Positions 23,090 through 64,000 of a DNA stretch of 64,000 bases are shown in pieces (position 1 is the first letter of the stretch; every line of letters begins with the position of its first letter). Origin of the DNA: Dokdonella sp. (GTDB lineage: Bacteria; Pseudomonadota; Gammaproteobacteria; Xanthomonadales; Rhodanobacteraceae); contig JADJQH010000003.1 of assembly GCA_016712865.1 (NCBI GenBank), positions 122,932-186,931 on the forward strand, written 5' to 3'. A program made the translations under genes and the position numbers. The notes under the pieces were generated by a model that saw only the letters and a program-made list of their open reading frames with translations, searched no databases and was not told the origin of the DNA.

Positions 23090-24121
23090 CTACATCGAAT
23101 CGATTCGCCACACACCCAAGCCATCCGGCGACATATGCAACGGATAACCACTAACCTCGCCAGCCTGTTCGGTCACGAGGATCAGTTCGGCGTCGATGGG
23201 GCTCAGCGTGCCGTTCGCGATCATGCCCAATCGTGTGGCGGCAATTGGCAGGTTGACGCCCAACGCGTTGAACAAGCGGGCGTACTTGTGTCGCTGCTTC
23301 AGGTGGAAGGCGTGCATGGCGCCGGTCACGTCGCTCGCCGCCATCCGAGTCCGCACGTGCGCATACACCGAGCAAAGAATCTCGCGTTGAGAGGCGATGT
23401 CGAGAATGGCCACCCGACGTTGGACCGTGTACTGATTGCTTGCCGTGTCAGTAACCGTCGCTTGCACAACATGGACACCGGCAGCGGTGAACAAATGCCG
23501 AGGAATCGCATTCGGATCGGTGCCTGTGTAGATGGCCGAGCCGTCACCAAAATCCACCGTGACGCTTTGCACCGTGATGGTGGACGGCACGCCGATGCTG
23601 AAACCGATGCCAAATGGCCAATAGCCGGCATCCGCATCGCTGAACAACTCGATGCCTGTGGACACCGGGGCCGAGGTAATGGATAGCGAAGTCGTCGCTG
23701 TTAACCCATCCAGGGTTGTAGCCTGAACGGGTAGCGAGTTCATGCCACTGGTCAAGGTGAAGCTGGGTGTCAGAAACGTGCCGTTATAGACGTAGGCACG
23801 GACTCCGTTGACGGATACGCCCGTGCCGGTTGGTCCTGTGAAGGTGCCTGAAACCTGCACCTTGTTCGATGGAATTGTCGCCCCGCTGGGCGGATAGGTA
23901 ACCGCAATCGCAGGCGTCACTCCCAGTGCCGGGGGTTGTACCGTCGAAACCGGCGGCCCCAGGCCAGGTGTTGGCGGGTCGAAGCCATCCGTGAAGATGA
24001 CATCGAAACTGGCCGTTTGCAGTCCGCAAATCTCCTGCGCGCGCGTCGTCGTCGCGAGACAGCCACTGCAGGCAGCGACGGCAAGAAAAAGCGCTCGTTG
24101 ACAACCATTTGAGTATTGCAT
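23090..24121 (-). CDS. exported PKD-domain protein, first gene of the five-gene operon
   Basis: A 343-residue protein that begins at ATG 24121 after GAGGGAGCC; a GTG at 24139 is an alternative. The N-terminal hydrophobic run ends in VAAC, a possible lipobox (with a Sec signal ending TTTRA-Q as the other option). Close behind is FDVIFTDGFDPP, a near-copy of the IFxxGF(E/D) motif found at the very C-terminus of other secreted proteins in this window. Then follow Ser/Thr-rich beta segments and a PKD-like domain (VTVDFGDGSAIYT...RHLFTAAGVHVVQATV). The last 100 residues are unique and end VWRIDSM. It probably acts at the cell surface or periplasm; the role is unknown. Confidence 0.75.
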   Translation of the reverse strand: MQYSNGCQRALFLAVAACSGCLATTTRAQEICGLQTASFDVIFTDGFDPPTPGLGPPVSTVQPPALGVTPAIAVTYPPSGATIPSNKVQVSGTFTGPTGTGVSVNGVRAYVYNGTFLTPSFTLTSGMNSLPVQATTLDGLTATTSLSITSAPVSTGIELFSDADAGYWPFGIGFSIGVPSTITVQSVTVDFGDGSAIYTGTDPNAIPRHLFTAAGVHVVQATVTDTASNQYTVQRRVAILDIASQREILCSVYAHVRTRMAASDVTGAMHAFHLKQRHKYARLFNALGVNLPIAATRLGMIANGTLSPIDAELILVTEQAGEVSGYPLHMSPDGLGVWRIDSM

Positions 24122-44493: not shown

Positions 44494-44835
44494 GTAGAGC
44501 GGAGCTTGCTCCGCTTGAAGTCTTGCACGGCTCTTGTAGAGCGGAGCTTGCTCCGCTTGCAATACACCTCATGCACAGCCGAGCAAGCTCGGCTCTACCA
44601 CGGCAAGAATGTAGAGCGAAGCTTGCCCCCGCTTGAAGTCTTGCACGGCTCTTGTAGAGCGGAGCTTGCTCCGCTTGCAATACACCTCATGCACAGCCGA
44701 GCAAGCTCGGCTCTACCACGGCAAGAATGTAGAGCGAAGCTTGCCCCGCTTGAGGTCTTGCACGGCTCTTGTAGAGCGGAGCTTGCTCCGCTGCAAACGC
44801 CACACAAGTCCAGCCGAGCAAGCTCGGCTCTACAG
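44494..44835. repeat. array of nine GTAG-headed REP units in about 117-118-bp tandem repeats
   Basis: Units GTAGAGCGGAGCTTGCTCCG (and a GTAGAGCGAAGCTTGCCCC variant) alternate with inverted AGCCGAGCAAGCTCGGCTCT units in the order two forward, one inverted, three times. A higher-order repeat starts with CTTGAAGTCTTGCACGGCTC at about 44514, 44632 and 44749. It fills the 480 bp between msrB and the gamma-glutamyltransferase gene. No gene is supported here. Confidence 0.92.
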
Positions 44836-47720: not shown

Positions 47721-48103
47721 CCGGATCCTGCCACTGCGGTGCCGTTCGATTTCGTGTGGACTCGGTCATCACGGAACTCACGACCTGCGATTGTTCCCTT
47801 TGCGTGAAGCGCAACGCCGTGATGGCAAAGGTTCCCGAGCAGGCGCTCAGCGTGCTCGAAGGCAGCGAACTATTGACGCGCTATGAGTGGAACACACGCA
47901 GGGCGAAACACTATTTCTGCAGCCGCTGCGGGATCTACCTGTTCCACCGCAAGCGTGCGGCGCCCGACCATTTCGGCGTCAACGCGTTTTGCCTGGATGA
48001 TTTCAACCCGACAAGCGTTCCCCTGCGTGCAACCGAGGGTGCCAACATGTCGATCGAAGATCCGCTTGCCAACCCGGCCTGGCCAGGGCCGCGAGATCTG
48101 TAG
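47714..48103 (+). CDS. GFA-family zinc protein
   Basis: A 129-residue protein of the GFA (glutathione-dependent formaldehyde-activating-like) family. The zinc residues are visible: 'TGSCHCGAVRF', 'TCDCSLCVKRNAV' and 'YFCSRCGIYLFHRK'. The start is probably TTG at 47714, overlapping the PhzF stop, which suggests coupling; longer frames upstream are not conserved. GFA proteins bind S-hydroxymethylglutathione in some members; most are uncharacterised. It lies next to a fragment of a secreted protein on the other strand. Confidence 0.83.
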   Translation: MLTGSCHCGAVRFRVDSVITELTTCDCSLCVKRNAVMAKVPEQALSVLEGSELLTRYEWNTRRAKHYFCSRCGIYLFHRKRAAPDHFGVNAFCLDDFNPTSVPLRATEGANMSIEDPLANPAWPGPRDL

Positions 48104-48162
48104 GCGGATGACTTGCGATCCGCACACCTCAGTCGGCACGACCGCGCATCCAGCGCGTTCCA

Positions 48163-48525
48163 TTCGAATCCGTTTTCAAGGATCAGGTCTGAACCTTCCG
48201 CAGCAGTAATCGCATACAGCCTGGTGCCGCTGCGGTCATACCCATCATTGGCATGACTGAAGATGACATAGAGCAGATTGGCCCGAGTGCTGCCAGGACT
48301 ACCCTCGGCATGGAACCGCAACCGGACGAGGCATTGCTCACTGGGCGCCAGGACCAGGCCCGCGGCACAGGTGTTGCCGACGATCTCGAAACCGTTGCTG
48401 AGCGCAGGCACGCTACTCACGGTGAATGGCACATTGCCGCTGTTGCGAACGATGAAATCATGCGCAGGCGAGTATTCGTTTGGCGCGGTGCTGCCGAACT
48501 GGACAGAACGTCGTTCGACTGACAT
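48163..48525 (-). pseudogene. fragment of a secreted choice-of-anchor-D type protein
   Basis: A minus-strand segment reads 'RRSVQFGSTAPNEYSPAHDF', 'IVRNSGNVPFTVSSVPALSN' and 'LVLAPSEQCLVRLRF', the pattern of an Ig-like centrosomal/choice-of-anchor D domain. It ends SDLILENGFE, a variant of the IFxxGF(E/D) tail, then runs on without a stop into sequence overlapping the GFA gene. There is no signal peptide or start region, so only the C-terminal part of a former gene remains. Confidence 0.6.
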
Positions 48526-48761
48526 CCCAGACACGCATGCTCGACACGCTTCGAGGTTACGGCCTGCGCAGGAGCGACCTCGCTTGGCGGGTGAATCTGG
48601 CATCCGGTGCATGTTCACTGGTAGGCCAGGGCACCTTGGCCATCCTCGGCGAAGGCACGCTTTTCGGACAGATGCTTCCGTGAGGCGAGGCTTGAATTCA
48701 ATGCAACGCTGAACAAGTCGCACAACTGTCATCGCCTTCGCACGATGGGCGCTCGCGAAGG

Positions 48762-51250
48762 CTACGGGTCGAAACCATCCACGAAAATCGGCAGCTCGAC
48801 GGCTTCCACCGCGCCGATATCGCAGGCGGGGTTGGCCTCGCTGCGGCGCGCGGCGCCGGTGGCATCAAGCTGCACGGCAAAACCGCCCACGTCATCGCAG
48901 GCGGACACGGGGATGGCATCCACGGCGGGACTGTTCGAGCCGGGTGAGTGGAAGGGCATGCCGGCTGAAACCTGCCGCGGGCCGAGCTCAGGATCGACGT
49001 TGAGCAGATTGGTGCTGGTATCGCCGGAGATGGCGCAACTGTCGCCCGGGGATTCGATCAGGTTGTGGCCGAGGCTGACCAGGCTGGAGTTGAACTCGGA
49101 GGTTTCGCAGTCGGAGGGTTCGATACCGGCCAGGTTTCCCGCAATCAGCAGGTTGCGAACAAAGTTGTCCTGGCCACCCGCAGTCAAACCGCCCGCGTAC
49201 TGCGTGAAACCAGGCGGATTGAGCGGCCCGGAGCTGTTGCCGACGATGCTGACAAAGCTTGCCGAGAAAATGCCGTACAGCATGGCGCCGCCGCCATAAA
49301 GCTGGCTCTGATTGTCGGCGATGGTGCCATTGACCATGCTGAATCCGTCGCTGGCTTCGTCGAACGTGGATGGCCCAGTGGCGAAGACGCCCCCGGCAAA
49401 TACGTTGTATCCGCCGGGGTAGACCACGGTGTTGTCGATGACGGCAAAGCGTTCGAATCGGCTTTCCGCAGCATACGGCAGATTGCTGTTGCTGAAGTTC
49501 CGTGAACGGGTATCCACGAAGACGCCTCCGGCGTAGGCGTTGTCTCCCGGCGGCTCGGCTGCAACGACGTTGTCCTTGATGACCACGTTGTAGAACAGCG
49601 TACTGCCGCCGGTGATCTTGATGCCGCCGCCATCAAGGTGGCCATTGGGATCGACTTCAAACGGATCAACGACAAGCGCACCGCCACTCAAGGTGGCATT
49701 GAACAAGGCAAAGGCCAGCGGATAGTGAACGAAGTCAAACCCCGGCCCGGTACCTTCGCGGCCGCGCACTTCCAGCACCCGATCAGCCACCGTGCTGACG
49801 ATTCTCGTGGCGTCGGCATCACCCGCACCCATCAAGGTCAACTGCAAGGGATTGTCGTGTTCTTCCCGTCGGACATCGATATCGCCACCATCCGGATCGT
49901 TGTTGGGGTTCAGATTGCGATTCAAGAAATAGGTGCCGGACGGCAGATTGACGAACCAGCGCCCGCCGCTGGCGCTGGCTTCCATGGTCAGCGCACGCAG
50001 GGTGCAGGTGTTGCCCTGTGCCTGGCACACGCCATCGCCAGGATTGAGGTCAGGAAAATCGTTGAAGGAATTGACCGTGACATCGATTTTCTGTTCATAC
50101 GCGCCGATATCGCATGAGGTGCTGCGCGACACGCCACGCGCATCACTGGAAAGGCAAGCCAACAGCGCATTGGAATTGCTCGGGTTGCCCGCGTTGAGCG
50201 CGGCGCTGCCGGCCAGCAAGGCATGGGTGGGTCGTCCCGAACCGAAGTCGAACAGTGGAGACAGGCGTGCGTCGCTGCTGGCCGGGTTACCCGAAGTTGA
50301 GGCGAATGTGCAATTGACCACCGCGCCGATCATGGTGAAAGCGCGAGAGCCCAGTTGGTTGTTGCCGGTGCTTCCGGAACAGTAGAGATCGGATGGATCC
50401 CCGTTGCCGTTGGCATTGCCGACCAGCACGCTGTTGGCGAAATTGACGCCCGTGGTATTGCCCGACAGACCGTACTGGACACCGCCCACGCCGACCGACT
50501 TGTTGTTTGTGACCGTGGAATTGCGCAGGCGAAACCACCCTTGCGCGTAGAGGCCGCCCGCCGTGACATTGGCAATGTTGCCGCTGATCGTGAGGTTGTT
50601 GAGCACGGCCTCGATGCCACTGGGCTGGGTCAAGGCAATGCCGCCGCCGAAATTCGCCGAGTTGTCGAAGATGCTGACCTTGTCCAGGGTCAGTACGCCG
50701 GTTCCGGTCGCATATACCGCGCCGCCCAGGTCGGCCGTGCCATCGCGCAGCACGCTGCGGTTGATGGTGAGCGTGGCACCGGCGTTCTTGCGCACCACGC
50801 CGCCATCGTTGGCAGTGCCGCCTACACACTCCCGCCGATCACGGTGACATCGTTCAAGGTCAGCGACCCGCCTGGGCGCACGTCAAACGTGCGGTCGAAG
50901 TCATGGCCAACGATGATGGTCTGCTCGGGATTGGTTCCCTGGATGATGATCGCGCTGGTGATGTCCAGATCGCCCGTGAAATTGTCGTCCTCATCGGCAG
51001 TTGCGGCTTGGCCCGCCGAGAAGACCGGGTTGCCGTCGTTCTGCTGCAACACCAGGGTGTCGGTACCCGCGCCGGCCGTGCAGTTCATGTACGCCGTGTT
51101 GGTGTTGGCGGCCCGAATCGCATCCCGAAGCTTGCAACCGCCGACTCCATCGGCAAGAACGTTGATGGTTGCGGCGACTGCCACGTGCGTAGCCACCACG
51201 GCAACCAGGCTAGCCAAGGCAACCAGCGTGGAAGATCGTTTCGTTTTCAT
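48762..51250 (-). pseudogene. large secreted parallel beta-helix protein, one frame break
   Basis: The N-terminal part (50822-51250) has the signal peptide 'VALASLVAVVATHVAVAA' and 'DITSAIIIQGTNPEQTIIVG', stopping just after VIGGSV. The next frame continues VGGTANDGGVVRKNAGATLT, so one two-base unit appears extra in the ACACAC run near 50823-50828. The remaining 680 residues are a right-handed parallel beta-helix ('GGAVYATGTGVLTLDKVSIF', 'VFAGGVFATGPSTFDEASDG') with Cys pairs in ACDIGAVEA and SCDIGAYEQ. The last residues are ELPIFVDGFDP. It would be an exported adhesin-like or matrix protein. The break may be a sequencing error. Confidence 0.83.
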
Positions 51251-51334
51251 GGTCTGCTTTCCGTCCCGAAGGCATCGAGGTGCGTCGTGATGCCTTGTTC
51301 AATGCGGGGAGATGCCCAAAACCAACAGGGTGCA

Positions 51335-51442
51335 AGCCGAGCAAGCTCCGCTCTACATCAAACACCATTCCCCGTAGAGCGGAGCTTGCTCCCCTTCGAC
51401 AAGCAAAAGCCAAGGCAAGAGCCGAGCAAGCTCGGCTCTACA
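51335..51442. repeat. GTAG-headed REP cluster
   Basis: Three units: AGCCGAGCAAGCTCCGCTCT inverted (about 51335), GTAGAGCGGAGCTTGCTCCC forward (about 51375) and AGCCGAGCAAGCTCGGCTCT inverted (about 51421). They lie between two secreted beta-helix genes. Confidence 0.88.
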
Positions 51443-51467
51443 AAGGGCATCCAGCGATTCTGCCGGC

Positions 51468-52547
51468 CTATTCCTGCAAGTCGAAGTCGTTGGCAAAGAT
51501 GCGGTCGATGTTTTCGTAAGCGCCGATATCCACGCGGCCTTCGTTGATGCGTGCCTCCCCGGCCAGGTCGAGAGTGGACAAGACGAAATCTTCGGTACCG
51601 GCATTGCGCAAGGGCGAGTCCAGAGTGGGCCGCAAATCGTCGTTGAGCAGGTCGACGAATCCGGGATTGGCGTAGGCAATGTTGCCCACCAGTTGGGATG
51701 GAGCCGAACCGGAAAGGGTCACGTAGTTGTTGTAGTAAAGATCGATGCCACCGCCCCCGTCGACCAGGGAAATATCGCTGGCCACGTTTGCGGCAAATAC
51801 ATTGTTGTAAAACAAGGCCCGCGCCGAGCCGCCGAATCGACCACCGCCATTGGTACAGGAGGCACCGCTGGTGCATGCGTTGCCAACGACCGTATTGCTG
51901 CCGATGAAGATACGCGTGTTGGCCGTATCGGTGGCATTGGCGGTGAAGGAGAACGCGCAGTTCGCCATTGAACAGCGGTTGAGCAGGAACATGTTGTTGC
52001 GGACGTTGGCTATGCCTTCGGTGTACAGGCTCATTCCGCCACCGAACGTGGTGCTGGTATTGCGCTCCATGATGACCCGCGTCACCACGATGTTGCCGAG
52101 AAAACCCGCGCCTCCGCCAATGAAGAGGCCCGCGCCTTGTTGCGCGGTGAAGCCATTGCTGATGGTCAGATTGGAAATGGACAGAACACCGGAGGTGCCG
52201 GATGCGCCGGTCAACTTGAGAACCTGTCGCGCATCGGATCCGCTCAACGTGGTCGCGCTGGGATTGCTGACCTGACGAACGCACAGCTGATCCGGCGGAA
52301 TCGAATACCAACCTCCGGACACCGACAAGGATGAGTCCTCGCTGGTCGAATAGGCAAATGCCACGGCACTGCTGCCGGTATAGGTGCCGGCCTCGATCTG
52401 GATCGTGTCGGCCTCGCCATTGCTTCCGGCCATCATCAAGGCCTGTTGCAAGGTGGCGTTGGTGCTGACGCAGAATTCGGCCGCAGTTGCGGGGCTGACG
52501 ACGACAAGCGCGATTGTCAGCAGAATGGGTTTTCCATAAGTGGTCAC
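51468..52547 (-). CDS. secreted beta-helix protein, paralogue 1 of 3
   Basis: A 359-residue exported protein. GTG at 52547 follows GGGAGAACCATC and gives the signal peptide 'ILLTIALVVVSPATAAE'. It is homologous along its length to 55501-56568 and 57127-58236: FCV(S/N) near the mature start, an acidic 'NGE(A/S)D' segment, a beta-helix with 'GAGLFIGGGAGFLGNIVVTR', and 'LRNAG...VDIGAYE' near the end. The C-terminus is RIFANDFDLQE. No catalytic site is seen. It may be a surface or matrix protein. Confidence 0.85.
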   Translation of the reverse strand: MTTYGKPILLTIALVVVSPATAAEFCVSTNATLQQALMMAGSNGEADTIQIEAGTYTGSSAVAFAYSTSEDSSLSVSGGWYSIPPDQLCVRQVSNPSATTLSGSDARQVLKLTGASGTSGVLSISNLTISNGFTAQQGAGLFIGGGAGFLGNIVVTRVIMERNTSTTFGGGMSLYTEGIANVRNNMFLLNRCSMANCAFSFTANATDTANTRIFIGSNTVVGNACTSGASCTNGGGRFGGSARALFYNNVFAANVASDISLVDGGGGIDLYYNNYVTLSGSAPSQLVGNIAYANPGFVDLLNDDLRPTLDSPLRNAGTEDFVLSTLDLAGEARINEGRVDIGAYENIDRIFANDFDLQE

Positions 52548-52603
52548 GATGGTTCTCCCGTTGCGTTGCGACAAAAAGAATCTGCGCGACTACCGCGCAT
52601 GCT

Positions 52604-52745
52604 GCCGAGCAAGCTCGGCTCTACAACAACCACGAGCCCCATGGAGCGAAACCTGCTCCGCTCTCGACACCACCGCGCATGCAGCCGAGCAAGCTCGGCT
52701 CTATGCCAAGCTCGAATCCCGTAGAGCGGAGCTTGATCCGCTCGC
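52604..52745. repeat. GTAG-headed REP cluster
   Basis: Two inverted AGCCGAGCAAGCTCGGCTCT-type units (about 52604 and 52683) surround a decayed forward unit (GGAGCGAAACCTGCTCCGCT), and GTAGAGCGGAGCTTGATCCG follows at about 52731. They fill the gap between two secreted-protein genes. Confidence 0.85.
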
Positions 52746-52764
52746 AAGCCTGCGGACTTGAGGC

Positions 52765-55278
52765 TCATGGCTCGAAATCGTCCGCGAATATTTCATCGCC
52801 GATACCTGATGCGTATTCGTCCTGCACCATCAGCCCCTGGGTACCGCCGCTGCCAGTGGTGAAGCTGGTCACCACACTGCCGTCGTCCAGGCGTGCGCGC
52901 ACCACGCGACCGCTGGTGATTCCACCCGTCCAGAAGGTTTCACCATCCGGGTCGATGCTCATGGCGTAGAGCCCGTTGCTGTCGTTTTCGCCGAGGCTGA
53001 TGCGGGAATATTCCTGCACCAAAACACCATTTGGATCGAACCGGTAAATGCTGTCGCGGCAGGCCACCATCAGCTCGCCGTTGGGCAACTGGCGCAACGC
53101 GAAGCACGGCGAAGGCAAGGCAGTCGCCAGTGGAGTCATCGGCTGCTCAAGGCAGACATCGAAGCGACGCACCTCGGTGTCTTCCGAGTTGTAGTAGATC
53201 GTGCACTGGTCGGCATCCAGCTCGATATCGTCGGTACCCGACAAACCCACCGGCACGGCAAGGCTTCGCAACACGCGCCCGTCGGGCGCCACGTAACGCA
53301 ACAAGGCTGACTCGGCTTCAGGTGGAACTTCTTCGCCAACCCAGACGTTGCCGAGCGCATCGAAGGCGCAGCTTTCCTCGCTTCCCATGAACCCGCCGAA
53401 GGTTTCGTCAAGCACGGTGCCAGTCGCGGACATCAACACGGGGCCGGGGCCGTAGTTGAACCGCCCGGTCAGCACCTCACCTGAGGATGTGCGACACATG
53501 GGGACGCCGATGGGGCTTAAGGTATTGGGCAGCTTGTTGTCCCAACCATCGACGAATTCGCCGTCGGTGGTGTAGCGACTGATCTTGCTGACCTGCCCGG
53601 TTGGCGTCGGCTGGTTGGTGGTCTTGCCGATCAGCAGGTAACGCCGGCCTGGCGGACCATCGTCATCGACGATGCGCCCCTCCGCGCTGAACGTGAATCG
53701 GCGATTGTTGCCGAAGCTGGCATTCTGCAGGGTGCTGCTTGTTGAGGAATCGTCGGTAACAATCGAGAACGCTTCGTCGGCTTCGACCGAGCTGTCGCCA
53801 TTGATGGTGATCGGGATTTGCTTGCTGGTCTCGCCGGGATTGAAGGTCACCGTGCCGAGGGCATTGTCGAAGTCCGCCGCGTTGCCGCCGGCGGCGATGG
53901 TGACCGCCGTGCCCGGGCTGGTGGTGTAGCCAAAACTCACGGTTTGGCTGGTGGGTGCCGACAGGCTGACCGCCACCTGCATCTGCTGCGTGCCGCTGTT
54001 GCCTTCGCTGACCTGGGTGCGGGCCAGGGTGAGCGTCGGCACCACGCGAAGGTCGGTCTGGGTGGGCGTCGGACGCAGCGCAAGGCTGAGTGGATAGTCG
54101 CTGAGCACGCGCTCATGCACAGGTGTCGTCGGAGAAATCCGGCTGGCATGGGTGGCAATCGTGATGCTGCTGTCGATGCCCGGTGCGTAGCCACCCTGAA
54201 AGCGCACGCGTGGCGAAACGCGTTGCCACTTGATCGATCCGCTCACGCTGATGCGATCGTGCTGGGTGGCTCCCGGCCCAGACAGGTCCAGCGCGATCTC
54301 GCCCTGGTTGAACTGCGCATCACCTTGCACGCTGAGCACGCCGAACGGATCGCCATTGGCGGCTTCCGGGTCAAGCAGGCCTGATGAACGGAAGGGTCCA
54401 ATCACGCTTCCGCTACCTTCGAAGAAACCGCCCGCGGGAATCACCAATTCCGAGATACCGCCATCGAAGGTGCCATCGCGAAGCCGGAGCGAGGTATTGA
54501 AGCTTGCCTGGAAGCCGGCGAGCGGATTGAGCACCTTGAAGGTCGCGTTGTGGATTTCGAACAGGCCGGTCGATGTGAATTTGCCGCCATTGGCACCGCT
54601 GCGCTGGATCTGCATCAAGCCAGGCCCCTGGTTGATCCATGTGCCTTCGTTGCGGATATCGCCACTGATGGTGTAGCCGAAGATGTAGTCACCGTTGACG
54701 GTGACCTGGCCTTCTGCGGAGTTCACGAGCTGTCCGCTCAAATCAAAGTCCAGTCGCGCTCCGCTGCCTCCATTCAACGTGGCGCTGCCGGCGTTGGTGA
54801 GGATGGCACGGCGAAACAGGTTTGCTCCGCCCAGCGAAACCGTCGAGCCGACAGGCAACTGCAATGACAAATAGGCCGGAGATGGCCCGCCCGGTGGCGG
54901 CAATGCACCGGACACCGTCGCATTGGTCATCGTGAAGCTGCCGGTGATGGTCAGTTGGCGCGTCGTGGTCCAGGTTTCGACCACGCCCAGTTCGGCACCG
55001 GGGGCAAGCTGCAGATTTGCAACCGTCGTGAGTTGACCGTCGAGCCAGGCGACGCCCGCCGGAATCACCGCGCTGTCGGCAGGTCCCGGCGTTCCCGCTG
55101 GCGAGCCGTTGCCGCCCGCGCAAGCGCTCCAGTTTGCGGGTTCATGCCAGGAAGCCGGCGCAGCGGCACTCCAGGTGCAGGTGGCCGCCATGGCGTTGCT
55201 TGCGCCGACACAGGCCACGAAACCGATCCAGAGCCGTGCTTTCTGGCGCCATGCGGGCGTAGCGGACGACACGGGCAT
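52765..55278 (-). CDS. secreted Calx-beta and beta-propeller protein
   Basis: An 837-residue exported protein. ATG at 55278 follows ACGGAGTTGCAACA; the TTG at 55311 is an alternative. The signal peptide is near 'LWIGFVACVGASNAMA'. The N-terminal half is beta-rich with a probable ATCTWS...WACGG region and repeated strands. Around 430-520 is a Calx-beta-like domain ('NSGTQQMQVAVSLSAPTSQT' with ITINGDSSVEADEAFSIV), then a NHL-like propeller ('TRYTTDGEF'-like blades, 'IYYNSEDTEVRRFDVCLE'). The C-terminus is DEIFADDFEP. It is the largest intact member of the tag-bearing island; its ligand is unknown. Confidence 0.84.
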   Translation of the reverse strand: MPVSSATPAWRQKARLWIGFVACVGASNAMAATCTWSAAAPASWHEPANWSACAGGNGSPAGTPGPADSAVIPAGVAWLDGQLTTVANLQLAPGAELGVVETWTTTRQLTITGSFTMTNATVSGALPPPGGPSPAYLSLQLPVGSTVSLGGANLFRRAILTNAGSATLNGGSGARLDFDLSGQLVNSAEGQVTVNGDYIFGYTISGDIRNEGTWINQGPGLMQIQRSGANGGKFTSTGLFEIHNATFKVLNPLAGFQASFNTSLRLRDGTFDGGISELVIPAGGFFEGSGSVIGPFRSSGLLDPEAANGDPFGVLSVQGDAQFNQGEIALDLSGPGATQHDRISVSGSIKWQRVSPRVRFQGGYAPGIDSSITIATHASRISPTTPVHERVLSDYPLSLALRPTPTQTDLRVVPTLTLARTQVSEGNSGTQQMQVAVSLSAPTSQTVSFGYTTSPGTAVTIAAGGNAADFDNALGTVTFNPGETSKQIPITINGDSSVEADEAFSIVTDDSSTSSTLQNASFGNNRRFTFSAEGRIVDDDGPPGRRYLLIGKTTNQPTPTGQVSKISRYTTDGEFVDGWDNKLPNTLSPIGVPMCRTSSGEVLTGRFNYGPGPVLMSATGTVLDETFGGFMGSEESCAFDALGNVWVGEEVPPEAESALLRYVAPDGRVLRSLAVPVGLSGTDDIELDADQCTIYYNSEDTEVRRFDVCLEQPMTPLATALPSPCFALRQLPNGELMVACRDSIYRFDPNGVLVQEYSRISLGENDSNGLYAMSIDPDGETFWTGGITSGRVVRARLDDGSVVTSFTTGSGGTQGLMVQDEYASGIGDEIFADDFEP

Positions 55279-55500
55279 TGTTGCAACTCCGTAGGGGCTC
55301 TCCCTACTCAATGCCCAACAGTTGCCATTTCCAACAATCAGGATGAGGCCGGAGTTTGCCCTCGATCCCTGGGGACACTCTGACCAACTTCAGGTTCGTC
55401 GTTCCCGCGAAGGCAGAGGTCATGTTGGTTTTTCCTGCCCTTCGGCATTGATAGGGCCATGGCGCCGGTCGTTGCGCGACGGATGACGAGGAGAACTCCC

Positions 55501-56568
55501 ATGTTTCGGACCCGTATGGCGATGCTGGCGATTCTCGTGGCCTTGGGCGGGAATGCCGTGGCCGCCACCTTCTGTGTCAATTCCGGCGCTGAACTGCGCA
55601 GCGCCCTGGCCAGTGCCCAGAACAACGGGGAAAGTGACGAGATTTTGGTGGCTAGCGGTATCCATGAGGTCGACAGCGGGAGTACAGCGTTTGCCTATTC
55701 CACAAGCCAGGACTTTGCCGTATCGATCATTGGCGGCTACAACGCCACCTGCACCATTCGCACCGACATCGCCAGCTTCACCATCCTCGACGGCGAGGAC
55801 CAGCGTCAGGTGCTTGCCCTGACTGGTTCCGCCAACAGCGACGGCTACATCGGGGTATTCAACGTTTTGATCCGCAACGGCTATTCGGACCAGTTCGGCG
55901 CCGGCCTGGAAGCCGGGGGTCCAACCGGGTTCTCGGGAACCGTCAACGTGAACAACGTCATTTTCCTGGAAAACATCAGCACAACTGCTGTCGGTGGGCT
56001 TTCCATCAGCAACCCGGCCGGTCGCATCTCCGTGCTCGGCAACCTGTTCATCAACAATGGCTGCTCATGGGACTACTGCGCGTTTGACCTGCTTTCGAAT
56101 GCGCCCGCCACCGCCCTCCATCCCATTCCCGTGCTGTTCGGCAACAACACGGTGGTCGAGAGCGTGTGCATCAATGGCGCCCCGGCCAGCTGCGATGTGA
56201 GCGGAGGGCGATTCTACGGCGATGCGAACGCGGCCTTCTTCAACAATGTGTTCGCCTTCAATGAGGATGCGGATTTGCGCCTGCAGGGGTCGAACGTGGA
56301 TCTCGATCACAACAACCTGCTGACCTGGATCGGTACACCGGCGAGCCAGAGCGGCAACCTTGCCTATGTCGATCCGTTGTTCGGCGGTCCAGGGAATTAC
56401 CGGCTGTCCTCCGCTTCACCCTTGCGCAATGCAGGCGTGATTGGGGCGTATCCGTTTGGGGCGTTAGACCTTGACGGCAATCAGCGCATCTACGGCCCGG
56501 AAGTGGATATCGGCGCCTACGAGAACACGGTGGCGATATTCGGCAATGGTTTCGAGACACCGTTCTGA
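55501..56568 (+). CDS. secreted beta-helix protein, paralogue 2 of 3
   Basis: A 355-residue exported protein. ATG at 55501 follows AGGAGAACTCCC. The signal peptide is 'MLAILVALGGNAVAA'. The mature part starts TFCVNSGAELRSALASAQNN and continues with a beta-helix ('GAGLEAGGPTGFSGTVNVNN') like paralogues 1 and 3. The C-terminal region reads LRNAG...VDIGAYENT and ends AIFGNGFETPF. It is divergent from the Calx-beta gene; the 220 bp between could hold two promoters. Confidence 0.86.
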   Translation: MFRTRMAMLAILVALGGNAVAATFCVNSGAELRSALASAQNNGESDEILVASGIHEVDSGSTAFAYSTSQDFAVSIIGGYNATCTIRTDIASFTILDGEDQRQVLALTGSANSDGYIGVFNVLIRNGYSDQFGAGLEAGGPTGFSGTVNVNNVIFLENISTTAVGGLSISNPAGRISVLGNLFINNGCSWDYCAFDLLSNAPATALHPIPVLFGNNTVVESVCINGAPASCDVSGGRFYGDANAAFFNNVFAFNEDADLRLQGSNVDLDHNNLLTWIGTPASQSGNLAYVDPLFGGPGNYRLSSASPLRNAGVIGAYPFGALDLDGNQRIYGPEVDIGAYENTVAIFGNGFETPF

Positions 56569-56594
56569 ATCTCCGACGCCGACCGAGGGCCCGC

Positions 56595-56724
56595 AGCCGA
56601 GCAAGCTCGGCTCTACACCTTGGAATTCACAGCCGAGCAAGCTCGGCTCTACACCTTGGAATGCACAGCCGAGCAAGCTCGGCTCTACACCTTGGAATGC
56701 ACAGCCGAGCAAGCTCGGCTCTAC
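56595..56724. repeat. 36-bp tandem repeats of the REP unit, four copies
   Basis: Copies start at 56595, 56631, 56667 and 56703. Each is AGCCGAGCAAGCTCGGCTCT plus the constant filler ACACCTTGGAAT(T/G)CAC. The filler is conserved between copies, so this is tandem amplification and not a CRISPR array. Confidence 0.93.
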
Positions 56725-56791
56725 CAAATACATCCAGATACATCGCGCGACTGTAGAGCTTGCTCCGCCTGGAGCTGGCGCACGAGCACTT

Positions 56792-56862
56792 GGTAGGTCG
56801 GGTTTCAACCCGACGGCTTTGGCTCTTCTGCGGCAACTTGTCGGGCTGAAGCCCGACCTACA
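56792..56862. repeat. second GTAG-headed REP type, inverted pair
   Basis: GTAGGTCGGGTTTCAACCCG and its inverted partner ending AAGCCCGACCTAC enclose a short spacer. It has a different core from the GTAGAGC units but shares the GTAG head. Confidence 0.88.
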
Positions 56863-56900
56863 AACACAACTTGGCCTGCTTCCCGTTGTCGCACATCAAC

Positions 56901-57024
56901 AGCCGAGCAAGCTCGGCTCTACATCTTGGAATTCACAGCCGAGCAAGCTCGGCTCTACACCTTGGAATTCACAGCCGAGCAAGCTCGGCTCTTGGAATTC
57001 ACAGCCGGGCAAGCTCGGCTCTAC
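56901..57024. repeat. 36-bp tandem repeats of the REP unit, second block
   Basis: Copies start at 56901, 56937, 56973 and 57003; the third is shortened by 6 bp. The filler again reads ACA(T/C)CTTGGAATTCAC. The block lies between two secreted beta-helix genes. Confidence 0.92.
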
Positions 57025-57126
57025 GAGAGCGACCGCCGCGGATTCCGCAGAGCGGAACGGGATCCTCAAGGTCCCCAATCCCAGCTGATGCGTTCGACCA
57101 TGCTCATTCGGGAATCAGCCAGGACT

Positions 57127-58236
57127 TCATTCAAAGCCGTCGAAGAAAATGCGCTCTCCGAATTCATGGGCGCCGATGTCGATCACGCTTTCCTGCACCC
57201 GGGAAATGCCGGCGTAGTCGATCGAGCTGTACGGCGGCAGGCCTACCAGAAAACCGTCGTAGCCCGCATTTCGCAGTGGGGAATCCTGTTGCAGGTTGAA
57301 ATCATCATCCAGGATCGGCGAGACGAATCCGGGATTGGAATAGTTGAGGGTCCCAAGCTCGGAAGCCGGCGTGCCGGACATTTCGGTGATGTTGTTGTAC
57401 CAGAGATCCACCGCGCTACCGCCGGTCAGTTCAACATCATTGCCGTCGTTCTGCGCGAAGGCGTTGTTGAGCAAGGCCGTGCGCGGGCTCAAGCCCAGGC
57501 CATCGACGATCACGCCGCCGGTGACGCAGCTCGCCCCGGCATCGTCGCTGCAGGTGTTGCCGAAAACGGTGTTGTTGCTGAACACCGCGCGAACTTCGGA
57601 ACCGTCGAGGGAGAAGATGGCGATGCTGGCTGCACAGCCATTGTTCTCGCACTGATTGGCGCGGAAGATGCTGTTGCGCACGCGGATACCGCCATTGGTT
57701 GACGCGTACAGGCCGGCGCCTTCCGGTGCGGAGTTGTTGTCGAAGTACACACGCTCGACCACGATGCTGCCGCTGAATCCGTTGGAACCGATGTTTCCGC
57801 CGAGCTTCATTCCGGCACCCTCTGTTGCGCTGTCGCCGCCGCGCACGGTGAGTTGCTCGATGATGATGTCGCCAGCGCTGCTGTTGGCGCCTTTTATCGT
57901 CAGGATGGACTTTGTACCGTCACTGGCCAGCACGGTCGAGGTGGGGTTCAGGAAGCGTCGCTGGCAGGTTTCTCCGGAGCCTGTCCAGCCACCTTGCAGG
58001 GTGAGGTCGAAATCTTCCTGGGTTTCGTAATAGAACATGCCCGCAACGAACGGAAACGTGTAGGTGTAGGTGCCGGTCTTGATGCGGATCACGTCATCTT
58101 CACCATTGCTTTCGGCAACGGCCAGGGCGTCCTGGATCTCGGTGGTTTCGTTGACGCAGAATGTCGCCGCACTGCCGGCGTGGCTGGCGATGAGCAGGCT
58201 GCCGATACCCAGTTGCAACAGGAATGGAAGTTTCAT
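57127..58236 (-). CDS. secreted beta-helix protein, paralogue 3 of 3
   Basis: A 369-residue exported protein starting at ATG 58236 with the signal peptide 'LLQLGIGSLLIASHAGSAA'. The mature part begins TFCVNETTEIQDALAVAESN. Beta-helix repeats ('GAGMKLGGNIGSNGFSGSIV', 'GAGLYASTNGGIRVRNSIFR') match the other two paralogues. The end reads LRNAG...IDIGAHEFGERIFFDGFE, with the tag as the last eight residues. It follows the REP arrays and lies downstream of the kinase gene on the same strand. Confidence 0.86.
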   Translation of the reverse strand: MKLPFLLQLGIGSLLIASHAGSAATFCVNETTEIQDALAVAESNGEDDVIRIKTGTYTYTFPFVAGMFYYETQEDFDLTLQGGWTGSGETCQRRFLNPTSTVLASDGTKSILTIKGANSSAGDIIIEQLTVRGGDSATEGAGMKLGGNIGSNGFSGSIVVERVYFDNNSAPEGAGLYASTNGGIRVRNSIFRANQCENNGCAASIAIFSLDGSEVRAVFSNNTVFGNTCSDDAGASCVTGGVIVDGLGLSPRTALLNNAFAQNDGNDVELTGGSAVDLWYNNITEMSGTPASELGTLNYSNPGFVSPILDDDFNLQQDSPLRNAGYDGFLVGLPPYSSIDYAGISRVQESVIDIGAHEFGERIFFDGFE

Positions 58237-62310: not shown

Positions 62311-62524
62311 GGAACGACCAACCGTACATCGATGTCGCGCGTGATCATGCCAGGCCAGCAGGCTGAGCGACCACCCTCGACCCTCTCTCCTTTCTGCCCC
62401 CTTGGTACGCCGGTGGGAGAGGAGCGTGCAAGCAGGCCAGGCATTCCCGTGGAGGGCGGATAAGCGCAGCGCATCCGCCGCACAGGGCGTTGGTGGATGC
62501 GCCTTGCAGGCTTATCCACCCCTA
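62311..62524. repeat. intergenic stretch with a GTAG-type stem pair
   Basis: No gene is supported. It ends with GTGGAGGGCGGATAAGCGCA...GCTTATCCACC, a long stem closing with the same arms as the following tandem repeats, and thus probably a diverged first copy of that unit. Confidence 0.65.
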
Positions 62525-62962
62525 CCTTGATAGCCTCGCATCACCCACCTTGGCCTCAACCCAACCCCTGCCCTCCGGAAGAGGGAAGTGATTCCTTCTT
62601 CTATGGGAATGTAGACGCCACAAGCGAAGCGCTTTCCTGTAGGGCGGATAAGCGCAGCACATCCGCCGGACATCCCGTTGGTGGATGCGCCTTGTCGGCT
62701 TATCCACCTACCTTGATGGCCCTCGCATCAACCACCATGGCCTCAACCCAACCTCCCCTCCGGAAGATGGAGCTGATTACTTCTTCTATGGGAATGTAGA
62801 CGCCACAAGCGAAGCGCTTTCCCGTAGGGCGGATAAGCGCAGCGCGTCCGCCCGCACATCGCGTTGGTGGATGCGCCTTGCGGGCTTATCCACCCTACCT
62901 TGATAGCCTCGCATCACCCACCTTGGCCTCAACCCAATCCTGCCCTCCGGAAGAGGAGGTGA
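62525..62962. repeat. 187-bp tandem repeat carrying copies of the lpdA tail
   Basis: Units start at about 62525, 62711 and 62898 with CCTTGATAGCCTCGCATCAC. Each has CCTCCGGAAGA...GTGATTACTTCTTCT, then GGAATGTAGACGCCACAAGC, then GTAGGGCGGATAAGCGCAGC...CTTATCCACC. In the last unit TTACTTCTTCTTCGGGATGT is the real 3' end of lpdA in reverse; the earlier units hold its diverged copies. Some positions differ between copies, so the repeats are not very recent. Confidence 0.9.
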
Positions 62963-64000
62963 TTACTTCTTCTTCGGGATGTACAGATCGGTGATCGTGC
63001 CTTCGTGAACTTCCGCGGCCATGCCGACGGATTCGCTCGGGGTCGGGTGCGGATGGATGGTGAGGCCGATGTCGGCGGCTTCGCAGCCCATTTCGATAGC
63101 AAGGGCGACTTCGGCGATGAGGTCACCGGCATTCGGGGCGACGATGCCGGCGCCGAGCACGCGGTGGCTGGCTTCATCGAAGATCAGTTTGGTGAAGCCT
63201 TCGGTGCGGCCAATGCCAATGGCACGGCCGGAAGCCGCAGCGAAAACTTGCCAACACCGTAGGCGATGCCTTGCGCCTTGGCTTCGGTTTCGGTGGGAAC
63301 CAACCAGGTTCCGGATCGGTGTAGGCGACCGGGGAATCACCCGCGCGACGAACTCGCTCTTCTCGTACGCTGCCACTTCCGGCCACTTTTTCCTTCGTGG
63401 GTGGCCTTGTGCGCGAGCATGAGGTTGTCCGACCAGATCACCGATGGCAAAGATATGAAGCACGTTGGTGCCGCATCTGCCGGTCAACCGGAATGAAATA
63501 ACGATCGGTCACGTTCACGCCCGGCCGCTTGCGCGTTGATCTTGCCGCCATTGGCCGAACGGCCGATGGCGACCAACACCGTCATAATAGGTTTGCGGTT
63601 CCGGGCGCCTTTCCCCTTCAAACGTGGCGGTGAGGCCCTTCTTGCCGGCTTCGATCTTCGCGACTTTCACCTTGAGATGAATCCGGCTAGCGTTTGGCCA
63701 GACGCTGCTGCAAGGGTCGAACAAGATCGGCATCGGCGCCGGGCATCAACTGGTCGAACAGTTCGACCACGGTGACCTCGAGGCCCAGCGCGTCGTACAC
63801 GCACGCCATTTCAAGGCCAATGATGCCGCCGCCGACCACCAGCAGTTTCTTTGGGATGTCGGCAAGATCCAACGCATCGGTGGAATCCATCATGCGCGTG
63901 TCGTCGGGGAATCGGGCAATTTCACCGCTTGTGAACCGGCAGCAATGATGGCTTTCCCGAAGCGCACCAGTTTCTTGCAGTCCTTGCCTTCCACTTCGAT
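62963..64000 (-). pseudogene. lpdA: dihydrolipoamide dehydrogenase, multiple frame breaks, 5' end outside window
   Basis: The C-terminal two thirds of lipoamide dehydrogenase (E3) in scattered frames. Recognisable blocks, from 5' to 3', are [14 protein letters not shown], '[20 protein letters not shown]' (NAD-binding), 'KVAKIEAGKKGLTATFEG', HIFAIGDLVGQ, a VAYTDPE block and 'HPHPTPSESVGMAAEVHEG', which carries the catalytic His; the end is LYIPKKK. Between the blocks at least six frame changes are needed, for example one T missing near 63912. This strongly suggests poor sequence at the contig end. E3 oxidises dihydrolipoamide in pyruvate and 2-oxoglutarate dehydrogenase complexes. Confidence 0.88.

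Follow-up and report, generated by a model that had tools for sequence, protein, structure and literature searches.

A stretch of 64,000 nucleotides from Dokdonella sp. (contig JADJQH010000003.1, positions 122,932 to 186,931; hereafter the window) encodes six proteins carrying a short peptide tag of nine residues, with the consensus D-x-I-F-x-[D/N/H]-[G/D]-F-[E/D]. The tag is used throughout the genome and at either end of proteins, is nearly restricted to one bacterial order, has drifted between lineages, and is co-distributed with a PDZ-type GspC and one class (class A) of the GspD secretin of the type II secretion system (T2SS). Written more broadly as D-x-I-F-x-[DNH]-[GDRS]-F-[ED], it may serve folded exported proteins as a portable linear address tag, read by the class A T2SS; we consider this reading evenly poised between right and wrong.

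A nine-residue tag on unrelated proteins

A strict DNA pattern for the tag, including the stop codon, was found at 13 places in the 3.75-Mb genome and the reversed pattern at none; a relaxed pattern gave 80 matches, and its reversed control one. When 54 stretches and the window were read for relaxed matches, 79 distinct matches were obtained, and in 65 of these the C-terminus lay no more than 18 residues from the start of the tag; uniform placement would give 4.1 matches in the last 20 residues. The 65 C-terminal copies and six elsewhere that were judged real make up 71 tags. Aspartate stood two residues before the isoleucine in 62 of them, the second residue after I-F was D, N or H in 65, and the third was G in 60 and D in 9; the pattern itself set both phenylalanines and the closing E/D and limited the choice at the first residue, so invariance at these positions is no evidence. 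Nothing followed the tag in 25 of the 65 C-terminal copies, and 1 to 11 residues followed it in the remainder. Third codon positions varied between copies, and selection therefore acts on the peptide. These analyses confirmed that the tag is real at the peptide level and excluded chance. Further C-terminal variants outside the patterns used (ILASGFEPRP, LFASGFD, LFADSFELP, IFADAFDVP and LFDDDFEE; loci L427, L428, L430 and L431) occur in the same genome, so the 71 tags are an undercount. The initial annotation had assigned the motif to all secreted proteins of an island, which proved too narrow, and an island-specific origin was rejected, in both cases because relaxed matches are spread genome-wide. 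The genes adjoining tagged genes included no recurring partner, and a partner was therefore sought through phylogenetic distribution instead.

The carriers of the tag are diverse. Sixty-three tagged proteins, compared by their cores with the tag and the N-terminal 30 residues removed, fell into 38 (blastp) or 43 (phmmer) groups unrelated to each other, which upheld the earlier observation that the proteins differ in fold and showed that the tag does not belong to a single longer domain common to all. Their Pfam families include M12B-like peptidases, subtilases, GSDH, FG-GAP, GH44, endonuclease I and DUF1501; frequent use on cytoplasmic proteins was not seen, with no obvious housekeeping cytoplasmic family among the best 25 of 43 Pfam families. 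By a crude rule, a signal-peptide-like start was present in 53 of 64 tagged proteins (one tagged frame shorter than 100 residues was omitted) and in 124 of 298 untagged open reading frames (ORFs) of at least 200 residues from the same stretches, a control that includes spurious ORFs (odds ratio 6.8). The eleven tagged proteins without such a start include a Tat protein, a clear miss by eye and the split gene of the window. A DUF1501 protein (L119) has a Tat signal and carries the tag at its C-terminus.

The initial annotation had placed the motif strictly at the C-terminus, a restriction that did not hold. Six relaxed matches farther from the C-terminus look real; the tag directly follows the signal peptide in the window protein 23090-24121 (tag at 23978-23998) and in a DUF1800 protein (L120), and one linker copy lies in a LapA-like aminopeptidase (L070; 205 bits, under the model's cut-off). 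The DUF1800 protein was searched for in 60 relatives and 30 loci were read, mostly each genome's best match. A tag-like motif stood between the signal peptide and the DUF1800 domain at 22 of the 25 loci from tag-positive genomes, the other three looking degenerate by eye, and at none of three loci from the untagged genomes G011 and G016; the background for such an N-terminal motif was 261 in 6000 random windows of 34 residues. Three of the four DUF1800 copies of the Dokdonella genome itself carry the tag, as judged by eye. The DUF1800 proteins are homologous, and their N-terminal copies are therefore not independent. A protein of genome G092 (family f8; L414) also has IFADGFD right behind its signal peptide. 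The presence of the tag at the N-terminus argues against a cleaved C-terminal sorting signal, and the maturation protease suggested earlier, or a sortase, that would cut the C-terminus is for this reason unlikely. What stands of the proposed recognition tag is its use on exported proteins of unrelated fold; its island specificity and its strictly C-terminal position do not. DUF1800 genes were present in 28 of the 60 relatives, with a large but incomplete overlap with the tagged genomes.

Distribution of the tag and of the type II secretion system

Named records with the strict tag belonged mostly to Lysobacterales (at least 116 stretches), and the matches listed include Dokdonella, Tahibacter, Rudaea, Pseudofulvimonas, Marinicella, Wenzhouxiangella, Aquimonas and Chiayiivirga. 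Real-looking tagged proteins were also found in a few metagenome bins labeled Alcanivoracaceae, Oceanospirillales or Sedimenticola, which are possibly mislabeled. Matches in short frames from Ferruginibacter, Bacteroidales, Clostridia and Flavobacterium records were judged to be chance. Within a panel of 220 genomes of the order, whose name is inferred from the named records, 87 contained the strict tag and 72 contained at least two. In a wider set of 369 genomes from the class, of which 364 lie outside the order, a similar pattern matched three genomes once each and the reversed control two. The tag is therefore nearly confined to one order.

The same panel was scanned for GspD (TIGR02517) and GspC (PF11356). 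In the family of the window (f1), PF11356 was matched in all six tagged and none of 33 untagged genomes, a count that omits G033, which belongs to f1 and is untagged despite a class A-like set, because it lies outside the panel. Across the order, it was matched in 64 of the 72 genomes with at least two strict tags and in 47 of the 148 others. The f1 secretins behaved likewise, with matches of 1e-163 to 1e-175 in the six tagged genomes and none better than 1e-147 in the 33 untagged. In family f9, G053 had neither the tag nor a GspD match at 1e-50, and the rest of the panel's f9 genomes were tagged; in family f2, only G116 had the tag and a strong PF11356 match.

In a set of 45 genomes, the secretins separated into class A, with 37-95% identity to the Dokdonella copy (G000:C8:262375), and class B, with 23-32%; each formed a clade with support of 100/100 in a tree of 46 sequences. 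Class A was present in 22 of the 23 strict tag-positive genomes. The 22 untagged genomes comprised nine with a class A-like secretin and 13 with none assigned (G010, G026 and G031 by score only). In the class B tree, in which several of the relevant rows are less than half filled, tagged G024 groups with untagged G016, and tagged G022 with untagged G018, G011 and G013. Because tagged and untagged f1 genera are paired twice in this way, f1 has probably undergone two or more losses of the tag along with class A.

The Dokdonella T2SS genes gspC, gspD and gspE lie at about 261139-265793 of contig C8 of the genome (G000). The encoded GspC contains T2SSC and PDZ domains, as did all four class A GspC proteins scanned with Pfam, and the others align with them. 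Two features of T2SS substrates were found for the tagged proteins: a Sec or Tat signal (the 53 of 64 above; Tat in L119) and T2SS genes in the genome. The tag on a Tat-signal DUF1501 protein and on a LapA-like aminopeptidase fits a machine that takes folded cargo of both Sec and Tat.

Two class A lineages that seemed untagged carry drifted tags. With a looser pattern, nine class A genomes of genus g35 that had been called untagged gave 9-39 matches (control 1-3), and twelve genomes without class A gave 0-12. Reading of one locus each identified IFKDRFE, IFSDRFD, IFSDRFE, IFADRFE and VFEDRFE in five of the nine g35 genomes, all equal or close to IFxDRFE; family f7 has LFADSFE, IFADSFE and VFADSFE, or [ILV]FADSFE. 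A change common to several proteins of a lineage is what a common receptor would cause.

Weighing the readings

The best account of these observations is the following mechanism. Proteins would be carried over the inner membrane by Sec or Tat and be folded; the flexible tag, which usually lies at the C-terminus of the mature protein but in some cases at its N-terminus or within a linker, would then be bound by a shared receptor belonging to a canonical T2SS with a PDZ-type GspC, and the bound protein would be passed outward through the GspD secretin. That the T2SS reads the tag is, in our estimate, a proposition with an even chance, based on genome comparison. According to three papers, no common linear signal is known for T2SS cargo (PMC7949064, PMC11981180, PMC12369372), and loop 3 of the pectate lyase PelI is a secretion determinant read by the PDZ domain of OutC and by GspD (PMC7949064, PMC12369372). 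This loop resembles the tag: it is flexible, about nine residues long and part of a folded protein exported by the T2SS, and it contacts GspC and GspD. It belongs to one enzyme, however, and is one of several determinants, whereas the tag is a single linear motif found on dozens of proteins that are not related, in most cases at one end. If GspC and GspD recognize the nine-residue loop of PelI, a terminal peptide that is free and flexible could play this part for many proteins. PDZ domains read short terminal peptides, and our guess for the docking site would be the GspC PDZ domain, with the N-domains of GspD. Unlike PDZ-binding C-terminal peptides, the tag has no fixed C-terminal residue, is followed by 0-11 residues and has N-terminal copies. 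The wider claim is of a general linear T2SS signal that works at either end, brings in about 70 or more folded proteins unrelated to each other and has drifted together with its receptor (G, R or S at position 5); it falls just short of an even chance. A literature search found no description of the tag among the papers listed, and text matches to its strings, some of them inside words, were unrelated where examined. If the whole order uses one short tag, T2SS cargo choice becomes directly testable; much of the exoproteome would be readable from sequence and a small portable export tag would be on offer. Even without the T2SS link, an address tag found at both protein ends is unlike the CTERM systems compared below.

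A number of observations weigh against a T2SS receptor. The co-distribution is partly shared ancestry, so the Fisher p-values (about 1e-16) overstate it, and weak PF11356 matches were present in four untagged f2 genomes. The class A genes seen were gspC, gspD and gspE, with a gspF-like ORF recognized by eye in relatives, and of the stretches read, only three had tagged genes close to this operon (two in G000, one in G034 and two in G068). Neither of the two f7 DUF1800 loci (G041, G051) has an N-terminal tag, though these genomes use the drifted tag elsewhere. The loose excess is weak on its own, as untagged G016 gave 12 matches against 0, and four of the nine g35 genomes showed no tag at the single locus read. 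Fourteen of the 87 strict tag-positive genomes had no PF11356 match, nine of them in f8 and the others being G079, G089, G141, G199 and G203 (77-94% complete). Two f8 genomes, G092 and G122 (97-98% complete), are truly tagged by reading, and class A was not found in them, the secretin class of G122 resting on score; of the seven relaxed matches of G092, three are at the ends of long frames and a fourth lies behind a signal peptide. Conversely, class A or a class A-like set was present and no tag was seen in G108 and G149 as well as in the basal lines G033, G056, G177 and G197.

An unlikely but serious alternative is surface retention, in which T2SS export would be independent of the tag and the tag would hold proteins, without a covalent bond, on a receptor in the outer membrane or matrix that is inherited along with the T2SS. 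Some tagged proteins resemble surface-anchored families (choice-of-anchor Q, rhombosortase- and myxosortase-dependent M36 and a MYXO-CTERM-anchored family). Rhombosortase exceeded its cut-off only in untagged genomes, four of the 45 (G016, G033, G047 and G197), and in G033 its gene lies directly upstream of gspC-gspD (L321; G033:C47:20050-23331), as if tag and rhombosortase were alternatives. However, no receptor gene was found, endonuclease I, GH44 and the subtilases need not be retained, and tagged G024 has a rhombosortase-like match of 80.1 bits, just under the 84-bit cut-off. Less probable still, another periplasmic or outer-membrane factor might read the tag, with the class A T2SS correlating since both go far back in the order and disappeared from the same lineages. 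The tagged f8 genomes in which class A was not found, and the untagged class A genomes G108, G149 and the basal lines, would suit such a factor; the concordant presence and absence in f1 (with probably more than one loss), in f2 (G116) and in f9 (G053) speak for the T2SS instead.

A processed, CTERM-like sorting signal cut by a dedicated protease or sortase is improbable. The mostly C-terminal placement, the many-to-one use and the choice-of-anchor neighbors recall such systems, but a membrane helix lay near only one of the 65 C-terminal tags, and that one borderline, and none was followed by two or more K or R, in agreement with the initial annotation, which had reported neither helix nor basic cluster. 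In addition, the tail after the tag varies (0-11 residues), and cleavage at N-terminal and linker copies would remove the protein. GlyGly-CTERM with rhombosortase (PMC3237569, PMC6219818, PMC13393428) is likewise a many-to-one tag on exported proteins, placed at the C-terminus and tied to a T2SS in Vibrio; it has a Gly/Ser motif, a hydrophobic region and a positive end, none of which is present in this tag, which also occurs N-terminally. Rhombosortase was rejected as a partner, since no tagged genome of the 45 was above the cut-off and the best match in Dokdonella was 48.9 bits against 84. MYXO-CTERM with myxosortase (PMC11980579) is similarly a tag of one lineage, where each genome encodes dozens of surface proteins that carry it; it is tripartite with an invariant Cys, and the tag has neither such a Cys nor a helix. 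At E up to 0.001, an NCBIfam scan of the 63 tagged proteins, with match positions for one of them, gave no CTERM tag model (PEP-, IPTL-, MYXO-CTERM and others) among the best 25 of 37 families. In the protein L086:7996-9312, a hydrophobic stretch and a basic end come about 65 residues after the tag; its likeness to an IPTL-CTERM end was by eye only, NCBIfam giving no match, and was set aside. Two further readings, that the tag arose by chance or is the end of a folded domain common to its carriers, can be dismissed: the choice-of-anchor Q domain matched in four of five window proteins does stop close to the tag in three, but the 80-to-1 control, the 38-43 unrelated groups and the N-terminal copies contradict both.

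Tagged proteins and repeats of the window

The five window C-termini first reported to carry the motif all proved to do so, and the tag at 23978-23998 marks a sixth tagged protein that was absent from the earlier list:

48768..48788, minus strand: IFVDGFD, then P and stop; choice-of-anchor Q protein with a split frame, distal piece 48762-50798
51480..51500, minus strand: IFANDFD, then LQE and stop; choice-of-anchor Q protein 51468-52574
52771..52791, minus strand: IFADDFE, then P and stop; Calx-beta protein 52765-55278 (Pfam)
56536..56556, plus strand: IFGNGFE, then TPF and stop; choice-of-anchor Q protein 55459-56568
57130..57150, minus strand: IFFDGFE, stop directly after; choice-of-anchor Q protein 57127-58236
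23978..23998, minus strand: IFTDGFD, near the mature N-terminus after a signal peptide (by eye); Glucodextran_B/PKD protein 23090-24121

The region 48762..51250 (minus strand), initially taken as one protein, consists of two open frames, 48762-50798 and 50822-51250, with the tag on the distal piece only; the break at 50798-50822 cuts a choice-of-anchor Q gene in two, by sequencing error or real inactivation. A fragment at 48163 had been described as ending in LILENGFE; its frame, 47935-48732 (minus strand), continues about 75 residues beyond that point. The choice-of-anchor Q domain (NF041518, NCBIfam), a type of domain that adjoins variable sorting signals, was present in four of the five window proteins and in five of the 63 tagged proteins of the genome, and therefore accounts for few of them. 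Its match ends within five residues of the tag in three of the four window proteins that have it, and no best-matching stretch covered the tag when six window pieces were scanned with NCBIfam at E up to 10. A predicted structure of the 57130-58236 protein, built from four sequences, had a mean predicted local distance difference test score (pLDDT) of 63.7, with residues 277-369 below 50, and therefore says nothing firm about the tail.

The window also contains two kinds of repeat. The sequence GAGCAAGCTCGGCT, which contains a palindrome, occurs in 22 copies with one mismatch allowed (0.04 expected), mostly in short arrays, several of them between tagged genes:

44494-44833: array of the repeat
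51339-51437: array of the repeat
52592-52743: array of the repeat
56594-56724: array of the repeat
56899-57024: array of the repeat

A 186-bp tandem repeat with 2.8 copies and 88% matches lies at 62444-62973.

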